From: Gemmatimonadales bacterium
GTDB taxonomy: Bacteria > Gemmatimonadota > Gemmatimonadetes > Longimicrobiales > Gaopeijiaceae
Reading direction: 5' to 3'
Length of the DNA stretch: 33,014 bases
Assembly: GCA_007692665.1 (NCBI GenBank)
Contig: REBP01000206.1
Coordinates: forward strand, 1 to 33,014
Shown here: piece after piece, positions 3,517 through 31,660 of the stretch
How the letters are laid out: each line of letters begins with the position of its first letter
Numbering within the stretch: position 1 is the first letter of the stretch
Notes under the pieces: model-generated
Database searches by the model: none
What the model saw: only the letters and a program-made list of their open reading frames with translations
What the model was told of the DNA's origin: nothing
Translations under genes and position numbers: made by a program

Positions 3517-6500
3517 CTACCGGGGAGAATCCGCCTGCTGAACCTCACCCCCCGCCGCCAGCTCCTGGTGGAGCCTCACGGTTGACGCCTCGGGATCGGC
3601 CTCGAGGGTTTCCCGCAGGAGCGTCCGCAGCCGGGTGAAGTGCTGGAGGGCCCGATCCCGGGACCCGTTTCCGGCCCAGGCGCGCATGAGCCCCCGGTGG
3701 CCCTCCTCGTTCAGCTCGTCCGCCGCCACCACCCGTCCCCACGCGTCCAGGGCCCCCGCCGGGTCGCCCGCCGCCTCTCGGGTCCGCGCCAGCAGCACCA
3801 GGCCGTCCACGTGGAGCCTGCGGTAGTGGTCCCGGGCATCCTCCAGCCACCGACCTCCGCCGGCACCGTCCAGCAGGAGCCCGCGGTAACGCGCGAGGGA
3901 AGCCTCGAGGCGTACCGGATCCACTGCGTCCCGCGCGCGCAGGAACTGGCGCATCTCCTCCTCGAAGATCTCCGCATCCCACTCGATCCCCCGCTCTCGC
4001 ACCAGCCTGTAGCGCTCTCCCTCCAGCACCACCAGCGAGGGATCGCCCAGCCGCTTCCGCAGGTGGTGAAGCGTGACGTGGTAGGAGTTCTTGACCTGCG
4101 AGGACGTCGAATCGGGCCAGATCGCGTCGCCGATTTCCTGCCGGGTCACCCCGCGCGGGTTCAGCAGGAGGAGGACCAGCACCTCGCGCGGGCGGGCATA
4201 GCTCCATGCACCCGGCTCCACGGTGTCGCCTTCGAGTTCGAAGGTGCCCAGCGTGCGGATGCGGATCCTGCAGTGGCCTGCGGCCGGGGAGATGGCGGGT
4301 TGGGGGGCCGGAGCCGGCGCGGGCGCCACGGCCGGAGCGTGCAGCACAACCGGTTCGTGGACTTCATCTTGCGGACTCCTGGACACCTCCGTCCCGGCGG
4401 TGAGTGGAGAGACCATGGCGAGGGCCAGCGTCTCGTCCAGACCACCGTCCTCCCATCCCTCCAGGAGGTCATCCAGGACCGACTCCCACCGGGCCTTCGT
4501 TCCCTCGGCGAAGGCGGCCTCGAACGCCGCGGGGCCCGCCGCTTCCCGGAGCCGGGGTTCCACCCGCTCCAGGCGTGCTGCATCGGTGCCGAAAGGCTTG
4601 ATCCCGATGCTCGACCGGATGCCGTGGGCCACGCCCAGCAGGCGCGCACCGGCCAGGGGCTCGCCCCGGAGGCCTGCGGCCTCGCCCATGAACGCGAACC
4701 CGCGGGCGATGAACATGTAGGAGTGTTCCTTCCTGAGTTCGGCAAGAGAGGCGACCACGAGTCGCTCCGCCCGTGCGTAGTCTCCCCGGTACGCCCACAG
4801 CAGGGACCAGTTCTGGAGCGTGGCCGCCAGGTCTGCGGGGCCGAAGGCGCGGGCGACCTCGATGGCCCGGGCGCTGAGCTGGTCCGCCCGGGGCCGGTCT
4901 CCCGTGGACTCGGCCGCCAATGCGCTCATGAGGAGCGAGAGCCGGTGACCCGACTCCTCGGGGTGCTCCTCGAACCAGGCGAGGGCACGGGCCGCATGGT
5001 CCACGACCCGGGGGTCGAGTACCTGGGCATAGCTCAGGGCCAGGTAGTTCTGTCCCATGGCCGCCCCGTACTCGTCGCCGGATTCGGCGGCCAGCCGCCC
5101 GGCTTCGTGGAGGAGTGCGCGTCCCTCCTCGACCCGCGTCGCCAGCGTGGACAGCGCGCCGGCGGCCAGGAGGAGGCGGCCCCGGCTTCGGTCCGGCACC
5201 GACGCATCCGAAATGGCCAGGGCGCCCTGGATCCAGCTCCCCGCCTCCTTCCAGAACCTGGTGTAGAACCAGAACCACCAGAGGCACCCGACCATGTCGA
5301 CATGAAGGTCCGGCGCCCGCGATCGGGTCCAGGCCAGCGCCTCGCGCACGTTCTCGAGGTCGGCGAGGAGCCGGTTCACATGCTCCTGGCGGTCGGCCCG
5401 GGTCATGTGGGGCGCCGCGCGGGTCACTTCGGATGCGATGAACCGGGCGTGTCGATCCCGGATCTCGTCGGACTCGCCCGATTCCGCAAGGCGCATGGCA
5501 CCGTACTGGCGGATCGTCTCGAGGGGGGCGTAGCGGACGACACCCTCGGCTTCCGTCGCCTGGAGAAGGGACCGGTCCACGAGGAGGGCCACCCGGTCAA
5601 GTACGTCGAGGGGGTCCTCGCCTTCCTCACGCCCCACGGCCGTCGCCCCGTCCAGCGTGAAGCCGCCCCGGAAGGCGCTGAGCCGCATCAGGAGCCGTCG
5701 GGCGGACTCCGGAAGCAGTTCGTGACTCCAGTCGATGGCGGCGCGGAGCGTGCGGTGCCGGGGAACGGCGCGGCGTCCGCCGGAGGAGAGCAGGGAAAAG
5801 ACATCGTTCAGGCGGTCCCGGATCTGCTCCACGCTCAGGACCCGGACCCTCGCCGCAGCGAGCTCGATGGCGAGCGGGATGCCGTCGAGCCTCCGGCAGA
5901 TCTCGGCGACGACGGGCGTGTTGTCCGGGGTGAGATCGAAGCCCCGCGACACGTCCCTGGCCCGGGCCACGAAGAGCTGCAGGGCTTCGGCCCGTGACAT
6001 CGCTTCCGGGTCGGCGTCGGGATGGGGGGTCGAAAGACCCGGAACGAGCCATGCACGTTCACCGGTCACCCCCAGCGCCTCGCGGCTGGTGGCCAGGATC
6101 GACAGGCGGGGACGGGCCGAGAGAAACTGCTGCGCCGCGTCGGCGCACGCATCCACCAGGTGCTCGCAGTTGTCGAGCACGAGGAGCAGGGGGCCGTCGG
6201 AGAGGAAGGGGAGTGCGGCCTCGGCGCCGCCGCCCCTGAGTTCTTCCCGGATCCCCAGGGCGCGAACGATCTGCTGCGGAAGCATGGCGGGATCCGCCAC
6301 CGCCGCGAGCTCCACCCAGCAGGTGGACGGTTCCCCGTGCTGCGTGCCGGACTCCGTGCCTGCTTCCCCCCCGGCTCCCGCGCGCCGCCGTGCCAGGACT
6401 TCGAGGGCGAGGCGGGTCTTGCCGCTCCCGCCGGCCCCGGTCAGCGTCAGGAGGCGGGTTTCGGAAAGGAGCTCGAGAAGTGCCTGGACCTCCCGCTCGC

Positions 6501-6561
6501 GGCCGATGAGCGGGGTCAGGGGAACGGGCAGCCCGGGAGCCGGGGGCGCGGAGGTAGCCAT
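3517..6561 (-). CDS. Large ATPase transcriptional regulator with C-terminal SARP/BTAD module
   Basis: A 1014-aa STAND-like signalling regulator. The N-terminal ATPase has LIGREREVQALLELL, Walker A TGAGGSGKTRLALEVL (G42-T49), Walker B LLLVLDNCEHL and the sensor ILATSREALGV, as in AfsR/LuxR-type activators. A helical, TPR-like middle (about 380-690) is followed by a low-complexity Ala/Pro linker rich in PAPAP. From residue 765 comes an OmpR-like winged helix (RTLGTFELEGDTVEP, YARPREVLVLLLLNPRGVTR, AIWPDSTSSQVKNSYHVTLH) and then a bacterial transcriptional activation domain to about 1003. In classical actinobacterial SARPs the DNA-binding and BTAD parts come first, so the order here is reversed. 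ATP-driven assembly and transcription activation are inferred from the domains. The next gene upstream on the same strand is a TonB receptor, but a strong hairpin separates the two. The target genes are not evident. Confidence 0.87.
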   Translation of the reverse strand: MATSAPPAPGLPVPLTPLIGREREVQALLELLSETRLLTLTGAGGSGKTRLALEVLARRRAGAGGEAGTESGTQHGEPSTCWVELAAVADPAMLPQQIVRALGIREELRGGGAEAALPFLSDGPLLLVLDNCEHLVDACADAAQQFLSARPRLSILATSREALGVTGERAWLVPGLSTPHPDADPEAMSRAEALQLFVARARDVSRGFDLTPDNTPVVAEICRRLDGIPLAIELAAARVRVLSVEQIRDRLNDVFSLLSSGGRRAVPRHRTLRAAIDWSHELLPESARRLLMRLSAFRGGFTLDGATAVGREEGEDPLDVLDRVALLVDRSLLQATEAEGVVRYAPLETIRQYGAMRLAESGESDEIRDRHARFIASEVTRAAPHMTRADRQEHVNRLLADLENVREALAWTRSRAPDLHVDMVGCLWWFWFYTRFWKEAGSWIQGALAISDASVPDRSRGRLLLAAGALSTLATRVEEGRALLHEAGRLAAESGDEYGAAMGQNYLALSYAQVLDPRVVDHAARALAWFEEHPEESGHRLSLLMSALAAESTGDRPRADQLSARAIEVARAFGPADLAATLQNWSLLWAYRGDYARAERLVVASLAELRKEHSYMFIARGFAFMGEAAGLRGEPLAGARLLGVAHGIRSSIGIKPFGTDAARLERVEPRLREAAGPAAFEAAFAEGTKARWESVLDDLLEGWEDGGLDETLALAMVSPLTAGTEVSRSPQDEVHEPVVLHAPAVAPAPAPAPQPAISPAAGHCRIRIRTLGTFELEGDTVEPGAWSYARPREVLVLLLLNPRGVTRQEIGDAIWPDSTSSQVKNSYHVTLHHLRKRLGDPSLVVLEGERYRLVRERGIEWDAEIFEEEMRQFLRARDAVDPVRLEASLARYRGLLLDGAGGGRWLEDARDHYRRLHVDGLVLLARTREAAGDPAGALDAWGRVVAADELNEEGHRGLMRAWAGNGSRDRALQHFTRLRTLLRETLEADPEASTVRLHQELAAGGEVQQADSPR

Positions 6562-14166: not shown

Positions 14167-15804
14167 TCACGGGCTGTCCTCGCGTCCCCTCGCCCCCCGG
14201 ACGACCTCGGGCGTCACCGCCTCACCCGCCGCCAGTCGTTTCCGCACCGCCTCGAAGACCCGCGCATCGGAGGCTTTCCGCGCATCGTCGCGGCGGCGGG
14301 CGGATGCCAGGGGAAGGGCGAGCCTCCGGTTTCCCTCGAGGCGCGTCCGGTGCCGCTCCAGGAATGCCCAGTAGAGATCGGAAACGGGACAGCTGTCCTC
14401 GGGGTCCAGCGCGCAGGCACCGCAGAAATCGCTCATCTTCCGGATGTAGGGCGTGCCCGAGACGTAGGGCTTCGTGGTCATGAGATCCCCCACGGCGAAG
14501 GTCCCCATGGCGAGGACGTTGGGCTCCACCACCCAGTCGAAGGCGTCGGTGTAGGCAACCCAGAACCAGTCCGTGAGCGCCCGGGGATCCACGTCCAGGA
14601 GGGTGGCCAGGTTGGAGATGACCATCAACCGGGTGATGTGGTGCCCGTACCCCTCCTCCCAGACCCCCTCCACCACGTGGTCCAGGCAGTGGAGCCCCGA
14701 CGGCGTCCCCCAGAACGCTTCGGGGAGGGCCTCCTTCGCCCCCAGGAAGGAGGGCGCGGCGCCCCCGTCCCGCTCCGGAACTTCCTCCCACCCCGGGATC
14801 TGCCGGAACCCGTCGGTGGCCCGGTGAACGTGGCGGACGAACTCCCTCCATCCCAGAAGCTGCCTCACGAATCCCTCCCGGCTGGCCAGCGAGATGTCCA
14901 GGGCCAGCACGTCTTCGAGAAGCCGCTGCGGGGTGATCCGCAGGAGGTTGAGGAGTCCCGACACGCGGGTGTGGAAGAGGGTCCGGGAATCCACCGACAT
15001 CGCGTCCTCGAAGGGACCGAACCGGGGAAGGCAGGCCTCGAGGGCCCACTCCCAGAGCGCCTCGACATCCGGAAGGGTGGCCGGGAGCGCGTCCGGCTGA
15101 AGGACGCCGGGGTGGTTTCCGAAGCGTTCCTCCACCAGCGCCACCACCTCCTCCTTTACCGGGTCCAGGGGGAAGATGGGCAGGATGGCCGCCGGGGGAT
15201 CCCCCTTCCAGGCCTCCCGGTTCTCGGCATCGAAGGAATATTTCCCCCCCTCGGGCTTTCCGTTCTCCATGAGAATGCCGGTGCGCTTCCGGACCTGGCG
15301 GTAGAAGGCATCCATGCGCCAGGGCGGCGACGGCCCCGCACCCTTTTCGAAGTCTTCCCGGGTGGTCAGCCACCCCTCGTGGGGAAGAATCTCCAGCCCT
15401 CCCTTCACCACCAGGGGAGCCAGGTCCGCGCGGAGTTCCCGCTCCGCGGCCTCCATCATGCGAAACGGGCCCCGCTCCCGAACCAGCGGGGCCAGGGCAT
15501 CGGCGTACCCCCCGGGGCTCACCACGTGGTGGACCGAAACCCCCCGGGCCGCCTGCTCCAGCGCGAAATGGCGGAGGTTCGCCAGGAGAAGCGCGAGCTT
15601 CTGCCTGTGATACGGTCGACGGGCACCTTTCGAAGGGGACTCCACCACGACGATCCCCAGCTCCTCCGGTGCCTCCCGGGCGAGGGGCCCCACGGAATCC
15701 GAAAGCTGGTCATAGGGGACGAAGAGCCAGCGCCGACCGGCGGGATCGGTCTGGCGGCCTTCGAGTTCCCTGCGAAAGGCGGAGGACGACGAGGAAGATG
15801 ACAT
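14167..15804 (-). CDS. FeS-type bacterial (6-4) photolyase / cryptochrome-related protein
   Basis: A 545-aa protein of the deoxyribodipyrimidine photolyase-related (DPRP, PhrB-like) group, which repairs UV (6-4) photoproducts using FAD and carries a [4Fe-4S] cluster. The N-terminal domain has LFVPYDQLSDSVGPL and VVESPSKGARRPYHRQKLAL; the helical FAD domain has RVSGLLNLLRITP, LLGWREFVRHVH, GYGHHITRLMVISNLA and TDAFDWVVEPNVLAMGTF. Four cysteines fit the cluster: C373 (SGLHCLDHV), C461 and C464 (DFCGAC) and C472 (EDSCPVSDLYW). The C373-C461 interval of 88 equals that of Agrobacterium PhrB, while the last interval (8) is shorter than PhrB's 13. A Ser-rich start (MSSSSSSS) is unusual but is the first ATG. 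It is divergent from the potassium channel gene. Confidence 0.92.
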   Translation of the reverse strand: MSSSSSSSAFRRELEGRQTDPAGRRWLFVPYDQLSDSVGPLAREAPEELGIVVVESPSKGARRPYHRQKLALLLANLRHFALEQAARGVSVHHVVSPGGYADALAPLVRERGPFRMMEAAERELRADLAPLVVKGGLEILPHEGWLTTREDFEKGAGPSPPWRMDAFYRQVRKRTGILMENGKPEGGKYSFDAENREAWKGDPPAAILPIFPLDPVKEEVVALVEERFGNHPGVLQPDALPATLPDVEALWEWALEACLPRFGPFEDAMSVDSRTLFHTRVSGLLNLLRITPQRLLEDVLALDISLASREGFVRQLLGWREFVRHVHRATDGFRQIPGWEEVPERDGGAAPSFLGAKEALPEAFWGTPSGLHCLDHVVEGVWEEGYGHHITRLMVISNLATLLDVDPRALTDWFWVAYTDAFDWVVEPNVLAMGTFAVGDLMTTKPYVSGTPYIRKMSDFCGACALDPEDSCPVSDLYWAFLERHRTRLEGNRRLALPLASARRRDDARKASDARVFEAVRKRLAAGEAVTPEVVRGARGREDSP

Positions 15805-15870
15805 CGGGGCCGCTACCCGATGACGGCCCGGTGGATCCCCGCGTTTCGCCCGGGCGGATCATTCCCTATC

Positions 15871-16791
15871 ATGGTCCTCATGTTCGAACCTGCCCCGTCC
15901 CGCGTCCAGCGGGCCCTTTTCAAGATCATCTTCGAGGCCCGCACCCGGGCGGGCCGGATCTTCGACCTGGTCCTGATCCTGACCATCCTCGCCAGCGTGG
16001 TGGTCGTCCTGCTGGAATCGGTTCCGGGGTTGTCCCGACGGTGGGGCCAGGGCCTCCCCGGGCTCGAGTGGGCCTTCACCCTGCTCTTCACGGTGGAGTA
16101 CCTGGTCCGACTCTGGGTGGTGAGGCGCCCGGGGACGTACGCCCGAAGCTTTTTCGGCATCGTGGATCTGCTGGCCATCCTCCCGACCTACCTGTCCATC
16201 TTCGTCCCCGGGGCCCAGGTGTTCCTGGTCATCCGGCTGGTCAGGCTCCTCCGGGTCTTCCACGTCTTCAACCTCGGGGGGTACCTGGGAGCGGCGGAGA
16301 CACTCAGGTCCGCGCTTCGGGCAACCCGGTTCACCCTCGCCGTCTTCCTCACGGCACTTCTCGCCCTGGTCGTCTTCCTTGGCGCCCTCATGTACCTGGT
16401 CGAAGGGGCCGACTCCGGCTTCTCGAGCATTCCCGTGGGCATCTACTGGGCCGTGGTCACGGTCACCACCCTTGGATACGGAGACCTGGTTCCCGAGACA
16501 CCGCTGGGTCGGGGGATCACCTCCGGGATCGTGCTCATCGGCTACTGGGCGCTGGCCGTTCCGGTGGCCATCGTTTCCGTGGAACTCTCGCGGGCCATGA
16601 ACAGCCCCCGGGAGGAGGTCGGTGGAGAGGAGGCGGAGAGGCGGCGCTCTCCCGGAACGGACGCTCCTCCCTGCCCTGCCTGCGGAGCCGGGGACCACCA
16701 GGCCGATTCGCTGCACTGTCGGCGGTGCGGTGGGCGTCTTTCGTCGACGCCCCCCACCGAGGAAGCTCGAGATGGCGGCACACCCTCCTGA
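15871..16791 (+). CDS. Voltage-gated-type potassium channel with C-terminal zinc-ribbon-like tail
   Basis: A six-helix ion channel, 306 aa from this start. S1 is FDLVLILTILASVVVVLL, S2 WAFTLLFTVEYLVRLWVV, S3 IVDLLAILPTYLSIFV, and S4 carries spaced arginines R122, R125 and R128 in VIRLVRLLRVFHVF. The pore has selectivity filter TTLGYGD (199-205) between S5 and S6, which indicates potassium. The cytoplasmic tail ends in a Cys4 pattern, CPAC (268-271) and CRRC (283-286), resembling a zinc ribbon, which is not a usual part of bacterial Kv channels. Starts at 15820, 15871 and 15880 are in frame and none has a good ribosome site. I chose 15871 because 15820 would leave only 15 bp to the divergent photolyase start. 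Three arginines in S4 suggest, but do not prove, voltage sensing. Confidence 0.9.
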   Translation: MVLMFEPAPSRVQRALFKIIFEARTRAGRIFDLVLILTILASVVVVLLESVPGLSRRWGQGLPGLEWAFTLLFTVEYLVRLWVVRRPGTYARSFFGIVDLLAILPTYLSIFVPGAQVFLVIRLVRLLRVFHVFNLGGYLGAAETLRSALRATRFTLAVFLTALLALVVFLGALMYLVEGADSGFSSIPVGIYWAVVTVTTLGYGDLVPETPLGRGITSGIVLIGYWALAVPVAIVSVELSRAMNSPREEVGGEEAERRRSPGTDAPPCPACGAGDHQADSLHCRRCGGRLSSTPPTEEARDGGTPS

Positions 16792-16809
16792 GCAGGGCGG
16801 CACTCTGCA

Positions 16810-16823
16810 TTGCAAAGTACTTG
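16810..16823. promoter_or_regulatory. Putative operator, copy 1 (TTGCAAAGTACTTG)
   Basis: This 14-mer, with the perfect 8-bp palindrome AAGTACTT at its centre, recurs exactly at 17962-17975. It overlaps the -35 box of the promoter before 16857, so a bound repressor would block RNA polymerase. The winged-helix protein encoded at 17467 is the obvious candidate binder (inference). Confidence 0.6.
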
Positions 16824-16849
16824 ACCTTCAGACGTCCGGAGGATAGAAT
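16821..16849 (+). promoter_or_regulatory. Sigma-70-type promoter, possibly giving a leaderless mRNA
   Basis: TTGACC (16821-16826), a 17-bp spacer and TAGAAT (16844-16849). Each hexamer differs from consensus at one position. A transcript starting seven bases after the -10 box would begin at about 16856, next to the ATG at 16857, so little or no leader is expected. A GGAGGA at 16837-16842 would lie upstream of that start. Confidence 0.65.
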
Positions 16850-16856
16850 CTCCGGC

Positions 16857-17477
16857 ATGCAACCCGTGCACCCCCTGCGACCCCCTCCCCTGACGTCGGA
16901 ACCCGTCGCCCTCGGCGACCGGGCCGTGGACGATCTGCGCTTCATCCGCCGGACCATGGAGCGGGGCGCAGCCTTCACGGCGGTCCCCGGGTGGGGTGGG
17001 GTGGGAATGGGGATCACCGGACTGCTCGCCGCGATTCTCGCAGCCTCCCGATCGACGCCCGAGGCCTGGCTCGCGACCTGGCTGGCCGCAGCCGTCGTGG
17101 CGGTGGGGATCGGGGGCTGGTCCATGCACGGGAAAGCCCGGAAGGCGGGACTTTCCCTCGTCTCCGGTTCGGGCCGGAAGGTCCTCACGGGCTTCCTTCC
17201 CCCGGCACTCGCCGGCGCCATCCTCACGGCAGCGCTGTACCGGGGGGATGCGATTCTTCTCATCCCCGGAACGTGGCTCCTCCTCTACGGTGTCGCGGTT
17301 GCGGCGGCCGGTACGTTTTCGGTGAAGGCCGTCCCGACGATGGGCGCGCTTTTCGTGCTGATGGGAGCCGTCGCCCTCCTCGCACCGGGAAGCTGGGGCG
17401 ATGTCCTTCTCGCCGCCGGGTTCGGGGGCCTGCACGTTGTCTTCGGGGTCTACATTGCGAGGAAACATGGCGGCTGA
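16857..17477 (+). CDS. Small multi-pass membrane protein of unknown function
   Basis: A 206-aa protein with a soluble N-terminus (about 45 residues, including DRAVDDLRFIRRTMERGAAF) and then about five or six hydrophobic helices, for example VGMGITGLLAAILAAS, WLAAAVVAVGIGGWSM, LLIPGTWLLLYGVAVAAAG and MGALFVLMGAVALLAPG. I do not recognise a named family. Proteins of this shape, beginning with an FIRRTME-like segment, are found beside small winged-helix regulators; that association is the best clue to its role. It ends in ARKHGG and overlaps the regulator start by 11 bp, so the two form one operon behind the promoter at 16821-16849. ATG 16857 is supported by that promoter geometry rather than by a ribosome site. 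Confidence 0.8.
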   Translation: MQPVHPLRPPPLTSEPVALGDRAVDDLRFIRRTMERGAAFTAVPGWGGVGMGITGLLAAILAASRSTPEAWLATWLAAAVVAVGIGGWSMHGKARKAGLSLVSGSGRKVLTGFLPPALAGAILTAALYRGDAILLIPGTWLLLYGVAVAAAGTFSVKAVPTMGALFVLMGAVALLAPGSWGDVLLAAGFGGLHVVFGVYIARKHGG

Positions 17478-17859
17478 GCATGCCCGCGCCACTAGTGACG
17501 GCGCAGCCCGTTCCCGCGGCCCGGAGACGGTCGTGGTCGACCTGTCCGAGGATCCGGTGACCAATCTTGCCGAACTCGACCAGCTCATCCACGGGCGGGT
17601 TCGCCTGGGGATCGCCAGTGCGCTCGCCGTGAACGAGAAGCTGAGCTTCACCGAACTCAGGGACATTCTCGAGACTTCGGACGGGAACCTGAGTGCCCAT
17701 GCCCGACGCCTCGAGGAGGGCGGGTACCTCGCCTGCCGGAAATCCTTCGACGGAAGAATTCCCCTCACCGAGTACCGCCTGACCGACCGCGGACGCCGGG
17801 CACTGGAACGGTATCTGGACCACATGGAAGCCCTGATCCAGCGCGTTCGGGAGCCCTGA
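17467..17859 (+). CDS. Winged-helix transcriptional regulator (HTH_34 / MarR-like)
   Basis: A 130-aa DNA-binding protein. The core is a single winged helix: LDQLIHGRVRLGIASALAV, then LSFTELRDILETSDGNLSAH as the helix-turn-helix region, ARRLEEGGYLACRKSF leading into the wing, and the wing itself TEYRLTDRGRRALERYLDHM. The TSDGNLSAH and LEEGGY motifs are typical of the PF13601 group. The first 40 residues are a polar extension. ATG 17467 has a GAGG a few bases upstream and overlaps the preceding membrane protein gene. Two identical 14-bp partly palindromic sites flank the locus, at 16810 (its own operon promoter) and 17962 (before the DUF4173 gene). It is therefore probably an autoregulated repressor of both membrane-protein genes; this is inference. 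No ligand-binding domain is present. Confidence 0.88.
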   Translation: MAAEHARATSDGAARSRGPETVVVDLSEDPVTNLAELDQLIHGRVRLGIASALAVNEKLSFTELRDILETSDGNLSAHARRLEEGGYLACRKSFDGRIPLTEYRLTDRGRRALERYLDHMEALIQRVREP

Positions 17860-17961
17860 GCCGTTGCGGAGGGGGGAGCCCCGTAACCCCGGGAAGGCTG
17901 GCCAGAAGGCCGTGGAATGATCCCGCAGGACCACTCTTTTATTTTTGAGGTTTACTTTATG

Positions 17962-17975
17962 TTGCAAAGTACTTG
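17962..17975. promoter_or_regulatory. Putative operator, copy 2 (TTGCAAAGTACTTG)
   Basis: An exact copy of the site at 16810, within a locally AT-rich stretch (17937-17975) in otherwise GC-rich DNA. It lies 52 bp before the DUF4173 start. As in copy 1, a -35-like TTG follows directly (TTGTTC, 17973-17978), but I see no clear -10 box at the right distance. The rest of the 17860-18027 gap holds no recognisable gene or hairpin. Confidence 0.55.
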
Positions 17976-18027
17976 TTCCTGCGATGTCATCAGTCCAGCA
18001 GCTCTCACGCCGGGGATGGGCTGACCG

Positions 18028-19733: not shown

Positions 19734-20843
19734 ATGAGGCCTCCCCTCCGGAAAACTCGCATCGTCCAGGGCAGCCGGCCTGCCGTCGTCGCGATGGTCG
19801 CGATGGTCGCCCTTTCGGGGTGCCGCGACGAGGAGGCGCGGATGGCGGAGGCCACCGTCCAGGAGGAGCGCGTGACCTCCGTCGCGGTTGTCGAAGTGGT
19901 CCCCCGGGATCTCTCGAGGGAAATCGAACTCTCCGGCTCCATCGAGCCCATTCGGGAGATCCGGGTGGCGGCAAGGATGGGCGGGATCGTCCGGGCGGCC
20001 CCCCACGAGGAGGGGGATCGTGTCACCGGGGGGCAGATCCTGGCCCGGTTCGACGTCTCCGAGGAAGAGGCCGAGCTCCGGAGGGCCCGGGCGATCCTGG
20101 AGGAGGCAGAGCGGAGCTACGACCGCGCCCGGGAACTGGTGGCACAGGAGCTGGTGAGCGCGTCGGAATACGAGTCCGCCCGCGCCTCCCGGGCGGTGGC
20201 GGAAAGCGAAGTCCAGCTCTGGGAAACGAGGGCCGACTTCGGGGTCGTCAGGGCCCCCGCATCCGGGGTCGTGACCGCCCGGTTCGTGGAGGTGGGCGAG
20301 GGCGTCGCCAGCGGCGATGTGCTCTTTCACCTGGCGGACCTGAGCCTCCTGGTGATCCGGGTCGGGGTCTCCGACGTGGATGCACCCCAGCTCTCCGAAG
20401 GGGCTCCGGTCGATGTCCGGATTGACGCGTCTCCCGGTCGGAGCTGGGAGGCGGAAATCCGGAGGGTCTTTCCCAGCGCGGACCCGGACAGCCGCCTCGT
20501 CCCCGTCGAGGTGGCCCTCACCGACCCGGAGCACCGCGTCCTTCGCCCGGGCTCGCTGGCACGCCTCCGCATCTCGGTGGATCCCAGGGCGGGCGTGCTT
20601 GCCGTACCCAACGAGGCGCTTCTCGCCTCCACCCCCGACGACCCTTTCCTCTACGTGATCGACGGGGAGGGGCGACTTCAGCGGCGAGCCGTGGTTCCGG
20701 GGGTGAGCCGGCGGGACTGGACCGAGATCCTGGAGGGCCTCGACGAGGGGGAGCGGGTGGTGGGGTCGAACCCGGCGGTGCTGGCCGAGGGACAGCGTGT
20801 GCAGGTGGCCGGCACCCTGACGCATCCATCGGACGGAAACTGA
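19734..20843 (+). CDS. RND efflux periplasmic adaptor lipoprotein (membrane fusion protein)
   Basis: A 369-aa adaptor linking an inner-membrane RND pump to an outer-membrane channel. ATG 19734 opens a lipoprotein signal with lipobox LSGC (VAMVAMVALSGCRDEE). The adaptor domains follow in order: first lipoyl half and beta-barrel edge (LSREIELSGSIEPIREIRVA, GGIVRAAPHEEGDRVTGGQ), a short alpha-hairpin (RARAILEEAERSYDRAREL, VSASEYESARASRAVAESEV), second lipoyl half (VRAPASGVVTARFVEVGEGV), a beta-barrel domain, and the membrane-proximal part ending in LEGLDEGERVVGSNPAVLAE. The short hairpin is typical of HlyD_D23/AcrA-like adaptors of simple pumps. The permease gene starts 11 bp downstream, forming an operon; no outer-membrane TolC-type gene is in the window. 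The substrate is unknown. Confidence 0.93.
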   Translation: MRPPLRKTRIVQGSRPAVVAMVAMVALSGCRDEEARMAEATVQEERVTSVAVVEVVPRDLSREIELSGSIEPIREIRVAARMGGIVRAAPHEEGDRVTGGQILARFDVSEEEAELRRARAILEEAERSYDRARELVAQELVSASEYESARASRAVAESEVQLWETRADFGVVRAPASGVVTARFVEVGEGVASGDVLFHLADLSLLVIRVGVSDVDAPQLSEGAPVDVRIDASPGRSWEAEIRRVFPSADPDSRLVPVEVALTDPEHRVLRPGSLARLRISVDPRAGVLAVPNEALLASTPDDPFLYVIDGEGRLQRRAVVPGVSRRDWTEILEGLDEGERVVGSNPAVLAEGQRVQVAGTLTHPSDGN

Positions 20844-20854
20844 GGGGAGCGGAG

Positions 20855-23800
20855 ATGCGAGACCGGACACCGGAGGAAAAGGGGGGCATTTCGGCGGCCG
20901 CGATCCGCCGCCCCATCGGCACGCTGGCGCTGATGTCGGTGGTTGTCGTCCTCGGCTTCTTCTTCCTGGACCGGCTGCCGGTGGACCTCCTTCCGGACAT
21001 CGCCTACCCGCAGATCCGGGTCACCGTGAACTACCCGGGTACCGCCCCCGAAGTCATGGAGGAACAGGTCACCCGGGTCCTCGAGCGCAACCTGGCCGCC
21101 ACCGAGGGTCTGATCCGGATCGACAGCCGGGCCTCCGAGGGTCGGACCAACGTGAATCTCAACTTCGAGGTCGGGACGAACCTCGACCTGGCGCTCCAGG
21201 ACGCCTCCCGCCTCCTCGAACTGGCCCGGACCCAGCTCCCTCCGGACATCGACCCCCCGCGCATCTACAAGCAGGATCCGAACGACCAGCCGGTCTACGA
21301 GGCCGGCTTCAGCTCCACCGTCCGGTCCCCGGTGGAGGTGCGGGACTGGCTCGAGAACCAGCTCGCCACGCAGCTCCAGTCGGTGGCCGGGGTGGGGGGA
21401 GTGGAGGTCGCCGGCGGCCAGGTCCGGGAACTCCAGGTCGTCGTCGACCAGGACCGCCTGAGCGCGTATAACCTGACCGTGCAGGACGTCATCGACGCGG
21501 TGGCGGCGCAGAACCGGGACATCGCGGCCGGCAACGTCACCTCCGAGTCCTTCGACGTCATGGCCAAGACCGACGGGCGCTATCGCTCCGCCGAGGACAT
21601 CGGGCAGGTCCTGGTCACGATCCCCGGAAGCCGCAGCCGGGTGCGCATCTCCGACATCGCGGAGGTTCGCGACGGCCACGCCGAGCAGCGCCTCTTCGTG
21701 CGCCTGAACGGTGACCCCGCCATGCGCCTGTCGGTCTTCAAGCTCCCGGAGTCGAATACCGTCCAGGTGGTGGAGGGGGTGGCGGCGCGGATCGACGACC
21801 TCGCCGCCAGCGGCTTCATCCCCGCCGACATCCAGTACCAGGTCACCCGCGACCCGGCCTTCTTCATCCGGAGCTCGGTCCGGGCCGTGAGCACGGCGGC
21901 CCTCCTGGGCGGTGTGCTGGCCATGCTCGTCGTCCTTCTCTTCCTCGGCAGCCTCCGCAAGAGCTTCGTCATCGGGCTCTCCATCCCCATCGCGATCCTG
22001 GCCACCTTTGCCATGATGGGCGTGGGGAACCTCACGCTGAACATCATGAGCCTGGGTGGGCTGGCCCTGGGCGTGGGGCTTCTCCTCGACAACTCCATCG
22101 TCATGCTGGAAAACATTTTCCGGCACCAGGACGAACTCGGGAAGGATCCGGATGCGGCGGCCCGGGACGGGTCCCGGGAGGTCGCCTCGGCCGTGGTGGC
22201 CTCGACGCTCACGAACCTGGCGGCGGTGGTCCCCTTCCTCCTCATCACCGGGATGGCCGCCCTGATCTTCCGGGAGCTGATCCTGACGATCTCCTTCGCC
22301 ATCGTGGCGTCGCTGGGGGTGGCCCTGACCCTGGTTCCCATGCTGGCGGCCCTCCTCGCCCGGCTGCGCTTTCGGAGCGGGCTTTCCGAGTCCCGGCTGA
22401 TCCGGGGATTCGACCGGCTCCTGGACCGGGGCGCCGCCCGGTACCAGGGGGTGATTCGTCGAACCCTCCGCGCCCGGTGGGCCGTGGTGGGGGGCGCGGT
22501 GGCCGTGCTTGCCGGAAGCCTCTGGGTGGCCGGTGACCTGGGCAGGGAATTCCTCCCCACGGTGGACAACGGCCTCGTGAACGTGCGGCTGAACCTCGTT
22601 TCCGGCGCCACCCCGGAGCGGACCGACCAGTACTTCCGCCAGGTGGAGGCGCTGGTCATGGACATGCCCCACGTGGAGACGGTCTTCACCATGGCCGGGG
22701 GCCACCTCTCCGGAGGGGTGATTTCCGAGCGTCCCGGCACCGCCCGCGCCTCGGTGCAGCTCGTGCCCGCCAGCCGGCGTCCGGGGGTGTCCGCCAACAC
22801 CTGGGTGCGGCAGGCGGAGGAGGAGCTCAACGCGCGGCTCGACATCCCCGGCGGCCAGGTTTCGGTGAGCCCCCCCGGGATCCCCGGCATCCAGACCAGC
22901 CTCGCAGGGGCCGACATCTCCATCGGGGTGGTGGGCGACGACATGGCCGAGCTGGACCGGCTCGCCCGGGAGATCGTGGAGCGGGCCGGGGGCGTGGAGG
23001 GGCTCCAGAACTTCGAACTGGCCAGGGACGACCGCACTCCGCTGCTCTCCGTCAACGTGGACCGGGACCGGGCCTCGGCCCTGGGGCTCAACGTGAGCGA
23101 CGTGGGAGAGGGGATCCGGAACGCCCTCTACGGTCATGTCCCCACCCGGTTCAGCACCGGCACGGGGCAGTACGACGTCCGGGTCATGCTCCCCCGGCAG
23201 GACCTGCGCACCTCGGAGGACCTCGGGGGGATCCGCCTCTTCCGGGGGAACGGAGACGCACCGGTCTACGTCCGGGACGTGGCGTCCTTTTCGCTCGGGG
23301 AGAGCCCGGCCCACATCGAGCGGGAGAACCAGGTCCGGGTGGTGCGGATCTCCGGCGAGGTCAACCGCGCGATCTCGGACGTGGGCACCGTCAACCAGCG
23401 GGTCCAGGCCGAGCTCGCCGGCTTCGACCTCCCGCAGGGGTACAGCCTCCTCTACGGGGGCGAGCTGGAGGCGATCGAGGAGACCAACCGGAACCTCCTC
23501 ATCGTCATTCTCCTCTCGGTCTTCCTGGTCTTCGTGGTCATGGCGGTCCAGTACGAACGCCTCTCGAATCCGCTGGTGATCCTCGGCGCCATCCCCCTGG
23601 CCCTCATCGGGGTGGTGGGCATGCTCTGGGTCACCGGCACGAACCTGGGCGCCCCGGTCATGCTGGGGGTGATCCTCCTCGTGGGGATCGTCGTCAACAA
23701 CTCGATTCTCCTGGTGGAGTACATCGAGATCGGCCGCCGCGAGCAGGCGCTGGGGGTGCAGGAGGCCGCCGTGGAAGCGGGCCGGATTCGCTTCCGTCCC

Positions 23801-24115
23801 ATCCTCATGACGACCCTGACCACGGTCCTGGGCATGACGCCGCTGGCGCTGGCCATCGGAGACGGCGCCGAACTCATGCAGCCCCTCGCCCTCGCGGTGA
23901 TCGGCGGACTCCTGGTCTCCATGCTCCTCACCCTCCTGGTGATCCCCTGCCTCTACGTCATCATGGAGGATGCGAAGACCCTGGCCCTGAGGGCGCTCAC
24001 AGGGAGGGAGGCTGGCGCCGCCGGTCGGAGTTCAGCAGGAAAACCGTCTCCAGCAGGCGCCACCCCCGCCGGCGATGCATCGCCCCGACCGGAGCCGCGC
24101 GGGCTTCCCGCCTGA
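20855..24115 (+). CDS. RND efflux permease, HAE-1/AcrB-type
   Basis: A 1086-aa proton-driven exporter of the AcrB/MexB class. TM1 (ALMSVVVVLGFFFLDRLPVD) is followed by the first porter loop (LLPDIAYPQIRVTVNYPGTA, EVMEEQVTRVLERNLAATEG), TM2-6 with IALLR-like GVGLLLDNSIVMLENIFRH, a second porter loop, and TM8-12 with ILLVGIVVNNSILLVEYIE. The TM4 proton-relay position shows D412-N413, the DN variant seen in many HAE relatives, not the DD of AcrB. The C-terminal 45 residues are a polar Ala/Gly/Pro-rich tail with no domain. ATG 20855 has a purine-rich ribosome site (GGGAGCGGAG) and lies 11 bp after the adaptor gene. The substrate (drug, lipid or metabolite) cannot be inferred. The 31-bp gap to the convergent acylase gene contains no obvious terminator. 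Confidence 0.95.
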   Translation: MRDRTPEEKGGISAAAIRRPIGTLALMSVVVVLGFFFLDRLPVDLLPDIAYPQIRVTVNYPGTAPEVMEEQVTRVLERNLAATEGLIRIDSRASEGRTNVNLNFEVGTNLDLALQDASRLLELARTQLPPDIDPPRIYKQDPNDQPVYEAGFSSTVRSPVEVRDWLENQLATQLQSVAGVGGVEVAGGQVRELQVVVDQDRLSAYNLTVQDVIDAVAAQNRDIAAGNVTSESFDVMAKTDGRYRSAEDIGQVLVTIPGSRSRVRISDIAEVRDGHAEQRLFVRLNGDPAMRLSVFKLPESNTVQVVEGVAARIDDLAASGFIPADIQYQVTRDPAFFIRSSVRAVSTAALLGGVLAMLVVLLFLGSLRKSFVIGLSIPIAILATFAMMGVGNLTLNIMSLGGLALGVGLLLDNSIVMLENIFRHQDELGKDPDAAARDGSREVASAVVASTLTNLAAVVPFLLITGMAALIFRELILTISFAIVASLGVALTLVPMLAALLARLRFRSGLSESRLIRGFDRLLDRGAARYQGVIRRTLRARWAVVGGAVAVLAGSLWVAGDLGREFLPTVDNGLVNVRLNLVSGATPERTDQYFRQVEALVMDMPHVETVFTMAGGHLSGGVISERPGTARASVQLVPASRRPGVSANTWVRQAEEELNARLDIPGGQVSVSPPGIPGIQTSLAGADISIGVVGDDMAELDRLAREIVERAGGVEGLQNFELARDDRTPLLSVNVDRDRASALGLNVSDVGEGIRNALYGHVPTRFSTGTGQYDVRVMLPRQDLRTSEDLGGIRLFRGNGDAPVYVRDVASFSLGESPAHIERENQVRVVRISGEVNRAISDVGTVNQRVQAELAGFDLPQGYSLLYGGELEAIEETNRNLLIVILLSVFLVFVVMAVQYERLSNPLVILGAIPLALIGVVGMLWVTGTNLGAPVMLGVILLVGIVVNNSILLVEYIEIGRREQALGVQEAAVEAGRIRFRPILMTTLTTVLGMTPLALAIGDGAELMQPLALAVIGGLLVSMLLTLLVIPCLYVIMEDAKTLALRALTGREAGAAGRSSAGKPSPAGATPAGDASPRPEPRGLPA

Positions 24116-29114: not shown

Positions 29115-29269
29115 GAAGCCTCCGTTTCGGGGGTGTTCGGGCGAGCGGGGCGAGCGCGGCCCGCGCTGGCGCCGGTTTCAACTCCGTGGCTACACCGGGC
29201 GGCGGCGGCGCGGTCCATGCCCACCGAACCCGCTCGACCGTCCCGGTGTCGCGATCCCGGCAGGCGCCG

Positions 29270-29275
29270 TATACT
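29270..29275 (+). promoter_or_regulatory. Candidate -10 box for the acylase 2 / GGT 2 operon
   Basis: TATACT, a near-consensus -10 hexamer in GC-rich DNA, lies about 85 bases before ATG 29360. At 17 bp upstream the sequence is TGTCGC, a poor -35, so the promoter may need an activator. The whole 29115-29359 region is the divergent control region of the two acylase/GGT arms. Otherwise it shows only GC-rich low-complexity sequence and the minus-strand ribosome site near 29115-29125. Confidence 0.4.
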
Positions 29276-29359
29276 GCGCCTGATTCCTCCATTTTCCCCC
29301 CATGTCCCGCCGCGCCCCCCCACGGGGCGACCCGCGGCGCCACTTCAGGGACCGAGTCC

Positions 29360-31660
29360 ATGCGCGCATCCTCCCGTTTCCCCCTCTTCCTCGTGCTCCT
29401 CCTTCTTCCCTGGGGACCGGCCGCATGCACCTCGGGCGACCAGGGGGCCACCCCCGACCGCGCCGGGGGCTCGGGCGAAGTCGCGACCTGGGAATCGAGA
29501 GCCGAACGGGTGACGATCTACCGCGACGAGTGGGGGATCCCCCACATCTACGGCCCCACCGACGCGGACGCCGTCTTCGGGCTCATGTACGCCCAGGCGG
29601 AAGACGACTTCCCCCGCATCGAGCGGAACTTCCTCGTCTCGCAGGGGAGGCTCGCCGAGGCCGAGGGCGAGTCCGCACTCTGGCAGGACCTGCGCATGCA
29701 GCTCTTCATCGACCCGGAAGAGATGCAGGCGATCTACGCCGAGAGCCCGGTGTGGCTCCGCGACCTCATGGACGCCTGGGCCGACGGGCTCAACTTCTTC
29801 CTCCACACGCACCCGGAGGTGGAGCCCCAGGTTCTCACCCGCTTCGAGCCCTGGATGGCGCTGACCTTCAGCGAAGGAAGCATCGGCGGGGACATCGAAC
29901 GGGTGAACCTGCGCCAGCTCGAGGCGTTCTACGGCGACCCCGAAGCGCATCGCATCGCCCAGGGCCCGCCATCCGCCGGTACCCAGCCCGGTCAGGTGGC
30001 GCCTGCCGCCCCGACCCGCGTCGCCAGCGCCCTCCTCGTCCCCGACCCCGAGCTCGAGCCCACCGGCTCCAACGGCTTCGCCATCGCCCCGGAGAACACC
30101 CGCGACGGAAACGCCCTTCTCCTCATCAACCCCCACACCTCCTTCTACTTCCGTCACGAGGCCCACGTGGTGAGCGAGGAAGGCCTGAACGTCTATGGCG
30201 CGCTGACGTGGGGGCAGTTCTTCGTCTACCAGGGGTTCAACGCCACCGCCGGCTGGATGCACACCTCGAGTTCCGTGGACAACATCGACGAGTTCCTGGA
30301 GACGGTGGTGAACCGGGACGGCGCCCTCCACTACGTCTTCGGTGACGAGGAACGCCCCCTCCGGGCCCGTGACGTGACCCTTCGCTACCGGAACGACGAT
30401 GGCGTTCTCGAATCCCGGACCTTCACCACCTGGCGCACCCACCGCGGTCCCGTGGTCCGGGCCGCCGATGGCCGCTGGGTGAGCGTGGCCCTGATGGAGG
30501 AGCCCATGCGCGCCCTCGTCCAGTCCTGGAGTCGCACGAAGGCCGCCAACCTCGCCGAGTACCTCGAGGTCATGGAGACCCACACGAATTCTTCGAACAA
30601 CACCCTTTTCGCGGATGCGGAGGGGAACATCGCCTACCTCCACTCGAACTTCATCCCCGTCCGCGACCCGCGCTTCGATTACGGGGACCCGGTGGACGGG
30701 AGCGACCCCGCCACCGACTGGCAGGGGATCCACACGCTGAACGAGTCTCCCAACGCCATCAACCCGGGCACGGGCTTCGCCTATTGCACCAACAACTGGG
30801 CGTATTCCTCCGCCGGAAGGGACAGCCCGAACCGCGCGGATTTCCCGGCCTACATGGACACGGGCTCGGAGAACCCCCGCGGCATCCATGCCCTTCGGGT
30901 CCTCGACGGGCAGCGCGATTTCACGCTCGAAGGCCTCCGCGACGCCGCCTATTCCCCGGACCTCCCGGCCTTTGACGTCATGGTGCCGCCCCTCGTGGCA
31001 GGGTGGGAAACGCTTGAGGAGGGGGATGCGGACCGGTCCAGGACCGCCGAGGCGATCCAGCTCCTGGGTGCGTGGGACCGGCGGTGGAGTGTCTCGTCGG
31101 TGCCCACCACGCTGGCGGTGTTCTGGGGCACGGAGATCCTGTCGCGCACCCAGGCCGAGGCCCGGAGCGCAGGCATGGACATCTACGACTACGTGGCCAC
31201 CCGAACCACCCCGGGCGAACGCATCGATGCCCTCGTGGCCGCCATGGACCGGCTCGAGGACGAGTTCGGCGACTGGCGGACGCCCTGGGGCGAGGTCAAC
31301 CGGTTCCAGCGCCTGAGCGGCGACATCGCGCTTCGCTTCGACGACGAGGCGCACTCGATCCCGGTGGGCTTCACCTCGGCCCGCTGGGGCTCCCTCGCCT
31401 CCTTCGGTGCGGCGCCCCGAAACGGGACCCACCGGTGGTACGGCACGAGCGGAAACAGCTTCGTGGCCGTCGTCGAGTTCGGCGACCGCGTCCGTGCCCT
31501 GGCCGTCACCGCCGGCGGGCTCCACCGCGACCCCGACTCCCCCCACTTCAATGACCAGGCCGAGCGCTACGCCGCCGGCGATCTCCGACCCATCCACTTC
31601 CATCGGGAGGACGTGGAAGCCGCGGCGCAGACCATCTACCGGCCGGGAGACGCCCGGTGA
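29360..31660 (+). CDS. Penicillin acylase family protein 2 (lipoprotein Ntn-hydrolase)
   Basis: A 766-aa amidohydrolase of the penicillin/AHL/aculeacin acylase group. ATG 29360 starts a lipoprotein signal (FPLFLVLLLLPWGPAAC, C23). The alpha region has VTIYRDEWGIPHIYGPTDAD and FGLMYAQAEDDFPRIERN. The autocleavage site is LEPTGSNGFAIAPENT, with Ser237 predicted as the new N-terminus and nucleophile; LLLINPHTSFYF, GWMHTSSSVDNIDEFLE, TFTTWRTHRGPVV and ETHTNSSNNTLFADAEGNIA follow. It differs widely from acylase 1: GSNGF in place of GSNNW, an inserted Pro/Ala-rich spacer before the site (PPSAGTQPGQVAPAAP), and a different C-terminal half. The two are therefore not a recent duplication. The overall pattern is closer to the cephalosporin/AHL-acylase branch. 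Its stop overlaps the GTG of the GGT 2 gene (GTGA), indicating co-translation. Confidence 0.92.
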   Translation: MRASSRFPLFLVLLLLPWGPAACTSGDQGATPDRAGGSGEVATWESRAERVTIYRDEWGIPHIYGPTDADAVFGLMYAQAEDDFPRIERNFLVSQGRLAEAEGESALWQDLRMQLFIDPEEMQAIYAESPVWLRDLMDAWADGLNFFLHTHPEVEPQVLTRFEPWMALTFSEGSIGGDIERVNLRQLEAFYGDPEAHRIAQGPPSAGTQPGQVAPAAPTRVASALLVPDPELEPTGSNGFAIAPENTRDGNALLLINPHTSFYFRHEAHVVSEEGLNVYGALTWGQFFVYQGFNATAGWMHTSSSVDNIDEFLETVVNRDGALHYVFGDEERPLRARDVTLRYRNDDGVLESRTFTTWRTHRGPVVRAADGRWVSVALMEEPMRALVQSWSRTKAANLAEYLEVMETHTNSSNNTLFADAEGNIAYLHSNFIPVRDPRFDYGDPVDGSDPATDWQGIHTLNESPNAINPGTGFAYCTNNWAYSSAGRDSPNRADFPAYMDTGSENPRGIHALRVLDGQRDFTLEGLRDAAYSPDLPAFDVMVPPLVAGWETLEEGDADRSRTAEAIQLLGAWDRRWSVSSVPTTLAVFWGTEILSRTQAEARSAGMDIYDYVATRTTPGERIDALVAAMDRLEDEFGDWRTPWGEVNRFQRLSGDIALRFDDEAHSIPVGFTSARWGSLASFGAAPRNGTHRWYGTSGNSFVAVVEFGDRVRALAVTAGGLHRDPDSPHFNDQAERYAAGDLRPIHFHREDVEAAAQTIYRPGDAR

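Follow-up and report, generated by a model that had tools for sequence, protein, structure and literature searches.

Autoregulated repressors of the MarR, ArsR and PadR types act at palindromic operators lying over core promoters, and auxiliary operators of the lac type lie inside coding sequence. The locus described here resembles the first kind in its small winged-helix protein, its inverted-repeat operator over a -35 element, and the combination of the regulator's own operon with a neighbouring membrane-protein gene. It differs in that the regulator reaches those families only with weak matches below the curated cut-offs (MarR_2, 24.3 bits against 27; MarR, 13.6 against about 24.4-24.9; the ArsR-type HTH_5, 18.6 against 22; NCBIfam ArsR/SmtB, 22.8 against 55; PadR, 19.4 against 27), in an extra half-site that adjoins the palindrome, and in a co-encoded six-helix membrane protein without a family. 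With the lac-type auxiliary operators it shares a second operator that lies, in relatives, within the first uppS codons, about 1.1 kb from operator 1; it differs from them in that the spacing includes the regulator gene and looping here is hypothetical. The regulator belongs to the HTH_34 family (PF13601), matching the full model (positions 1-80 of 80) with 89.3 bits against a cut-off of 27, and its nearest solved relative by sequence similarity is PH1061 (PDB 1ub9, E 4.4e-08). In the open-licence literature we found no paper naming HTH_34 or PF13601, an absence that is no proof of novelty, and two that mention DUF4153, neither of them in its title or abstract; a literature search with the motif string returned unrelated primer-type matches only. 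An autoregulated winged-helix repressor is a familiar kind of system; the operator, its targets and the location of an operator within a start region seem not to have been described before.

The window is the whole stretch of DNA that was analysed, 33,014 nucleotides long, and its features are shown in Table 1. An earlier note on this DNA had reported a 14-mer, TTGCAAAGTACTTG, at 16810-16823 and again at 17962-17975, with a regulator gene between the copies and each copy ahead of a membrane-protein gene. We found both copies at these positions on the forward strand, 1152 bp apart, and the HTH_34 gene in between. The second membrane-protein gene had been named DUF4173, which was not borne out: DUF4153 (PF13687) was its sole Pfam family at E <= 0.1, with 220.1 bits against a cut-off of 27.

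Table 1. Features of the window (positions 1 to 33,014)
Feature	Position	Strand	Remarks
1014-aa frame	3517-6561	-	BTAD domain; weak AAA/STAND match
Photolyase-related protein (DPRP) gene	14167-15804	-	
Ion-channel gene (Ion_trans, Ion_trans_2)	15820-16791		Weak zinc-ribbon match at the C-terminus; immediately precedes operator 1
Operator 1 (ACTCTGCATTGCAAAGTACTTG)	16802-16823	+	Holds copy 1 of the 14-mer; ahead of the gene for the small membrane protein
-35 element TTGACC	16821-16826	+	Operator 1 ends with its TTG
-10 element TAGAAT	16844-16849	+	
Small membrane protein gene, 206 aa	16857-17477	+	N-terminal helix (18-37) and six predicted membrane helices
HTH_34 winged-helix regulator gene, 130 aa	17467-17859	+	PF13601, E 1.9e-25
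T-rich tract, then GAGG (Shine-Dalgarno-like)	17937-17950	+	8 bp ahead of the ATG of the 21-codon frame
Operator 2 (ACTTTATGTTGCAAAGTACTTG)	17954-17975	+	Holds copy 2 of the 14-mer
21-codon open frame, MLQSTCSCDVISPAALTPGMG then stop	17959-18024	+	First five codons match the uppS-like gene start in relatives
DUF4153 membrane protein gene, 544 aa	18028-19662	+	PF13687, E 6.8e-65; presumed regulated gene
HlyD-type and AcrB-type efflux genes	19734-24115		Downstream of DUF4153
Penicillin amidase-family gene	29186-31660		

The first 11 bp of the HTH_34 gene, the only one of its family in the genome, are also the last 11 bp of the small membrane protein gene. The small membrane protein had no Pfam or NCBIfam match in profile searches, and a structure search with its model (pLDDT 90) gave no PDB match at E <= 0.001. 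Its homologues were present in all aligned relatives, distant ones in Caulobacterales, and were conserved together with the regulator. The DUF4153 protein likewise gave no PDB match at E <= 0.001, from a weak structure model (pLDDT 74).

The 14-mer is the shared part of both sites; it is not the repeated unit. Because the sequence around each copy extends to ACTTT-N7-AAAGTACTT, the real unit is an inverted-repeat operator of 21-22 bp, whose 21-bp consensus is ACTTTR-N6-AAAGTACTT. Positions 17954-17974 match this consensus exactly and positions 16802-16822 with one mismatch. The window held no further match to TTGCAAAGTACTTG at <=3 mismatches; shuffled windows had a mean of 0.17 such inexact matches, and at least two occurred in 3 of 100 shuffles. 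Genome-wide (4,234,508 bp), there were just two exact copies of the 13-mer core, both at this locus, and one copy with one mismatch, and a search for ACTTT-N7-AAAGTACTT at <=2 mismatches recovered the two window sites (0 and 1 mismatch) and one match with two. Genome-wide scatter of the 14-mer had been named beforehand as the observation that would speak against a regulatory role; our search found the site to be unique to the HTH_34 locus. The two 14-mers are almost certainly the invariant part of two candidate operators for the HTH_34 protein encoded between them.

The earlier note had also proposed comparing the upstream regions in relatives. Related loci were taken from scans of named genomes and of the phylum (Gemmatimonadota, Acidobacteriota, Rhodothermia, Hydrogenedentes and others); only non-identical loci were counted, and a match allowed <=2 mismatches in 14. 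The comparison showed that the site is conserved at both positions and tracks the regulator across genomes. Genomes of the same family retained the gene order and the sites. Of 61 related loci, 57 had the motif ahead of the membrane-protein gene, at the promoter of the regulator's own operon and fused to the -35, and none of 1220 shuffles did; downstream of the HTH_34 gene it stood in 47 of 64 loci and in about 0.1% of shuffles. A search of 198 genomes from the class at <=1 mismatch gave 234 sites, and a reversed control pattern gave 46. Where a close HTH_34 homologue was present, 89 of 99 genomes carried a site; where it was absent, 13 of 80 did (Fisher 6.5e-25, which is descriptive and not a literal p-value, since the genomes are related); the genome classes for this test were typed in from printed scan tables.

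Copy 1 does lie over the -35 box of a near-consensus promoter, as had been claimed (TTGACC, 17 bp, TAGAAT, 7 bp, ATG). In relatives, TTGAC was kept at the -35 position (alignment columns 19-23), and the A and T of the -10 were conserved. With only 7 bp from the -10 to the ATG, the mRNA of the small membrane protein and HTH_34 is probably leaderless or nearly so. A geometry scan of 81 sites placed the 3' end of the operator within the -35 at 28 of them and the operator in the -35/-10 spacer at 5; one site fitted both geometries and 47 fitted neither. The promoter-fitting sites point to repression through covered promoter sequence.

Copy 2 marks a membrane-protein gene as had been proposed; it is not an ordinary -35 box, and overlaps the start codon of what we read as the relic of a lost uppS-like gene. 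This frame opens ATG TTG CAA AGT ACT (MLQST, the peptide with which one related locus, L046, also begins) and ends three bases ahead of DUF4153. In relatives, operator 2 is usually followed by an uppS-like gene (PF01255), with which it was in frame in 35 of 37 loci (M-x-Q-S-T), supplying the uppS ATG in 20 of those. The only uppS-like match elsewhere in the genome was on contig C246. The relic frame is possibly a leader peptide, coupled to the translation of DUF4153. The T-rich tract and GAGG keep their position ahead of operator 2, at a fixed distance, in relatives. An intrinsic terminator was considered for this tract and rejected; since no consistent hairpin preceded it in the loci folded, we tentatively place it in the translation start region. 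That operator 2 has a promoter of its own was likewise rejected for the window, where neither inspection by eye nor the geometry scan gave a convincing -10/-35 pair.

Away from the regulator, 24 of 28 DUF4153 genes (families f4 and f5) had a site on the same strand within about 480 bp upstream. This count comes from site and gene position lists joined by hand; the exceptions were in genomes G185, G118, G161 and G141 (one gene between). The members checked of a longer DUF4153 subclass had no sites. Besides DUF4153, unlinked sites in relatives preceded genes matching CreD, a TonB plug, Wzz and polysaccharide export (single examples each), which suggests that the target genes share an envelope theme. 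One contig of genome G110 carries three operator variants ending AAAGTACAT (L168, L169 and L170); the genes that follow L168 and L170 match polysaccharide export and Wzz, respectively. The Caulobacter site lies ahead of an operon in which the first long frame looks acyltransferase-like, by eye only.

In Caulobacter, the sequence of the operator changes with that of the protein. Proteins with [S/T]DGNLS in the recognition segment accompany ACTTT operators, and 16 of 17 Caulobacter loci with TQGNLS had AGTTT-N7-AAAC[T/A], with ACTTT in none. The one other TQGN protein (L097) showed neither motif, and the covariation is essentially that of one clade. The change from SDGN to TQGN with that from ACTTT to AGTTT is suggestive of direct recognition by HTH_34.

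Several other explanations were weighed. A chance repeat or a recent local duplication would account for the bare repeat and for nothing beyond it, and we give it practically no weight, as the flanks of the two copies differ and the motif is kept at both places in relatives from several phyla. It is also very improbable that conservation concerns merely the -35 sequence at copy 1 and the uppS codons Q-S-T at copy 2, and not binding sites. The TTG of the -35 is indeed inside copy 1 and the frame of uppS is shared at copy 2, but the inverted half ACTTT upstream of the -35 is equally conserved, the nucleotides of copy 2 are kept while the peptide varies (MVSST, MIRST, MKQST), copy 2 was retained in the window despite the loss of uppS, and unlinked DUF4153 genes bear the site at non-coding positions.

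The sites might be real operators of another, perhaps global, regulator, with the HTH_34 gene merely one of its targets. We infer the binding by HTH_34, and genomes without a close homologue do have some sites, both of which leave room for such a regulator. We consider it unlikely, however, because this genome has such sites nowhere but around the HTH_34 gene, because their presence follows the homologue and genomes that lack it have sites at a rate close to the background of the reversed pattern (about 0.23 per genome), and because the changes in recognition segment and operator coincide in Caulobacter. A less remote alternative, possible though rather doubtful, accepts HTH_34 as the binding protein and has it activate at some sites, or makes operator 2 a loop partner or a roadblock for read-through from promoter 1, with no promoter of its own. 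Many relatives have only some 15-45 bp between the HTH_34 stop codon and operator 2, and with the operator inside the first uppS codons this leaves little non-coding room for a promoter; in the window, operator 2 has no clear promoter hexamers. On the other side, DUF4153 genes elsewhere in relatives have their own operator with promoter-like elements, and operator 1 overlaps the -35, the usual position for repression.

The reading that we prefer, and consider quite likely, is that HTH_34 represses its own operon and controls DUF4153 through two operators, with the membrane partner relieving repression. An HTH_34 dimer would most likely sit on ACTTT-N7-AAAGT, an inverted repeat next to which ACTT forms an additional half-site. 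Bound at operator 1, HTH_34 would cover the -35 of the leaderless promoter and so repress the small membrane protein and HTH_34 operon; at operator 2, it would control the downstream DUF4153 gene, with an uppS-like prenyltransferase gene in between in most relatives. That this control is repression we infer from the position of the operators only. Repression is probably relieved, on an envelope signal, by the co-encoded membrane protein, as its linkage to the regulator suggests. The compact autoregulated circuit of regulator, small membrane protein and DUF protein that the earlier note had put forward is therefore supported with corrections: its DUF4173 name falls, and binding by the protein is the conditional step.

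More tentatively, HTH_34 and the six-helix membrane protein might together act as a membrane-signal switch that is widespread, occurring in Gemmatimonadota, Acidobacteriota and Caulobacterales. The membrane protein would hold or release the regulator, and the prenyltransferase gene would contain one operator within its first codons. The cargo of such a switch would change between lineages and would include the uppS-like prenyltransferase, DUF4153, CreD, the acyltransferase-like gene and polysaccharide-export genes.

These results give a concrete operator and target list for a widespread and apparently uncharacterised regulator. They also connect the membrane family DUF4153, whose function is unknown, with genes of the envelope, which in relatives are uppS-like, CreD, Wzz and polysaccharide-export genes. 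Should the co-encoded membrane protein prove to be the sensor, this locus would be a simple way into envelope signalling in phyla where hardly any regulators have been studied.
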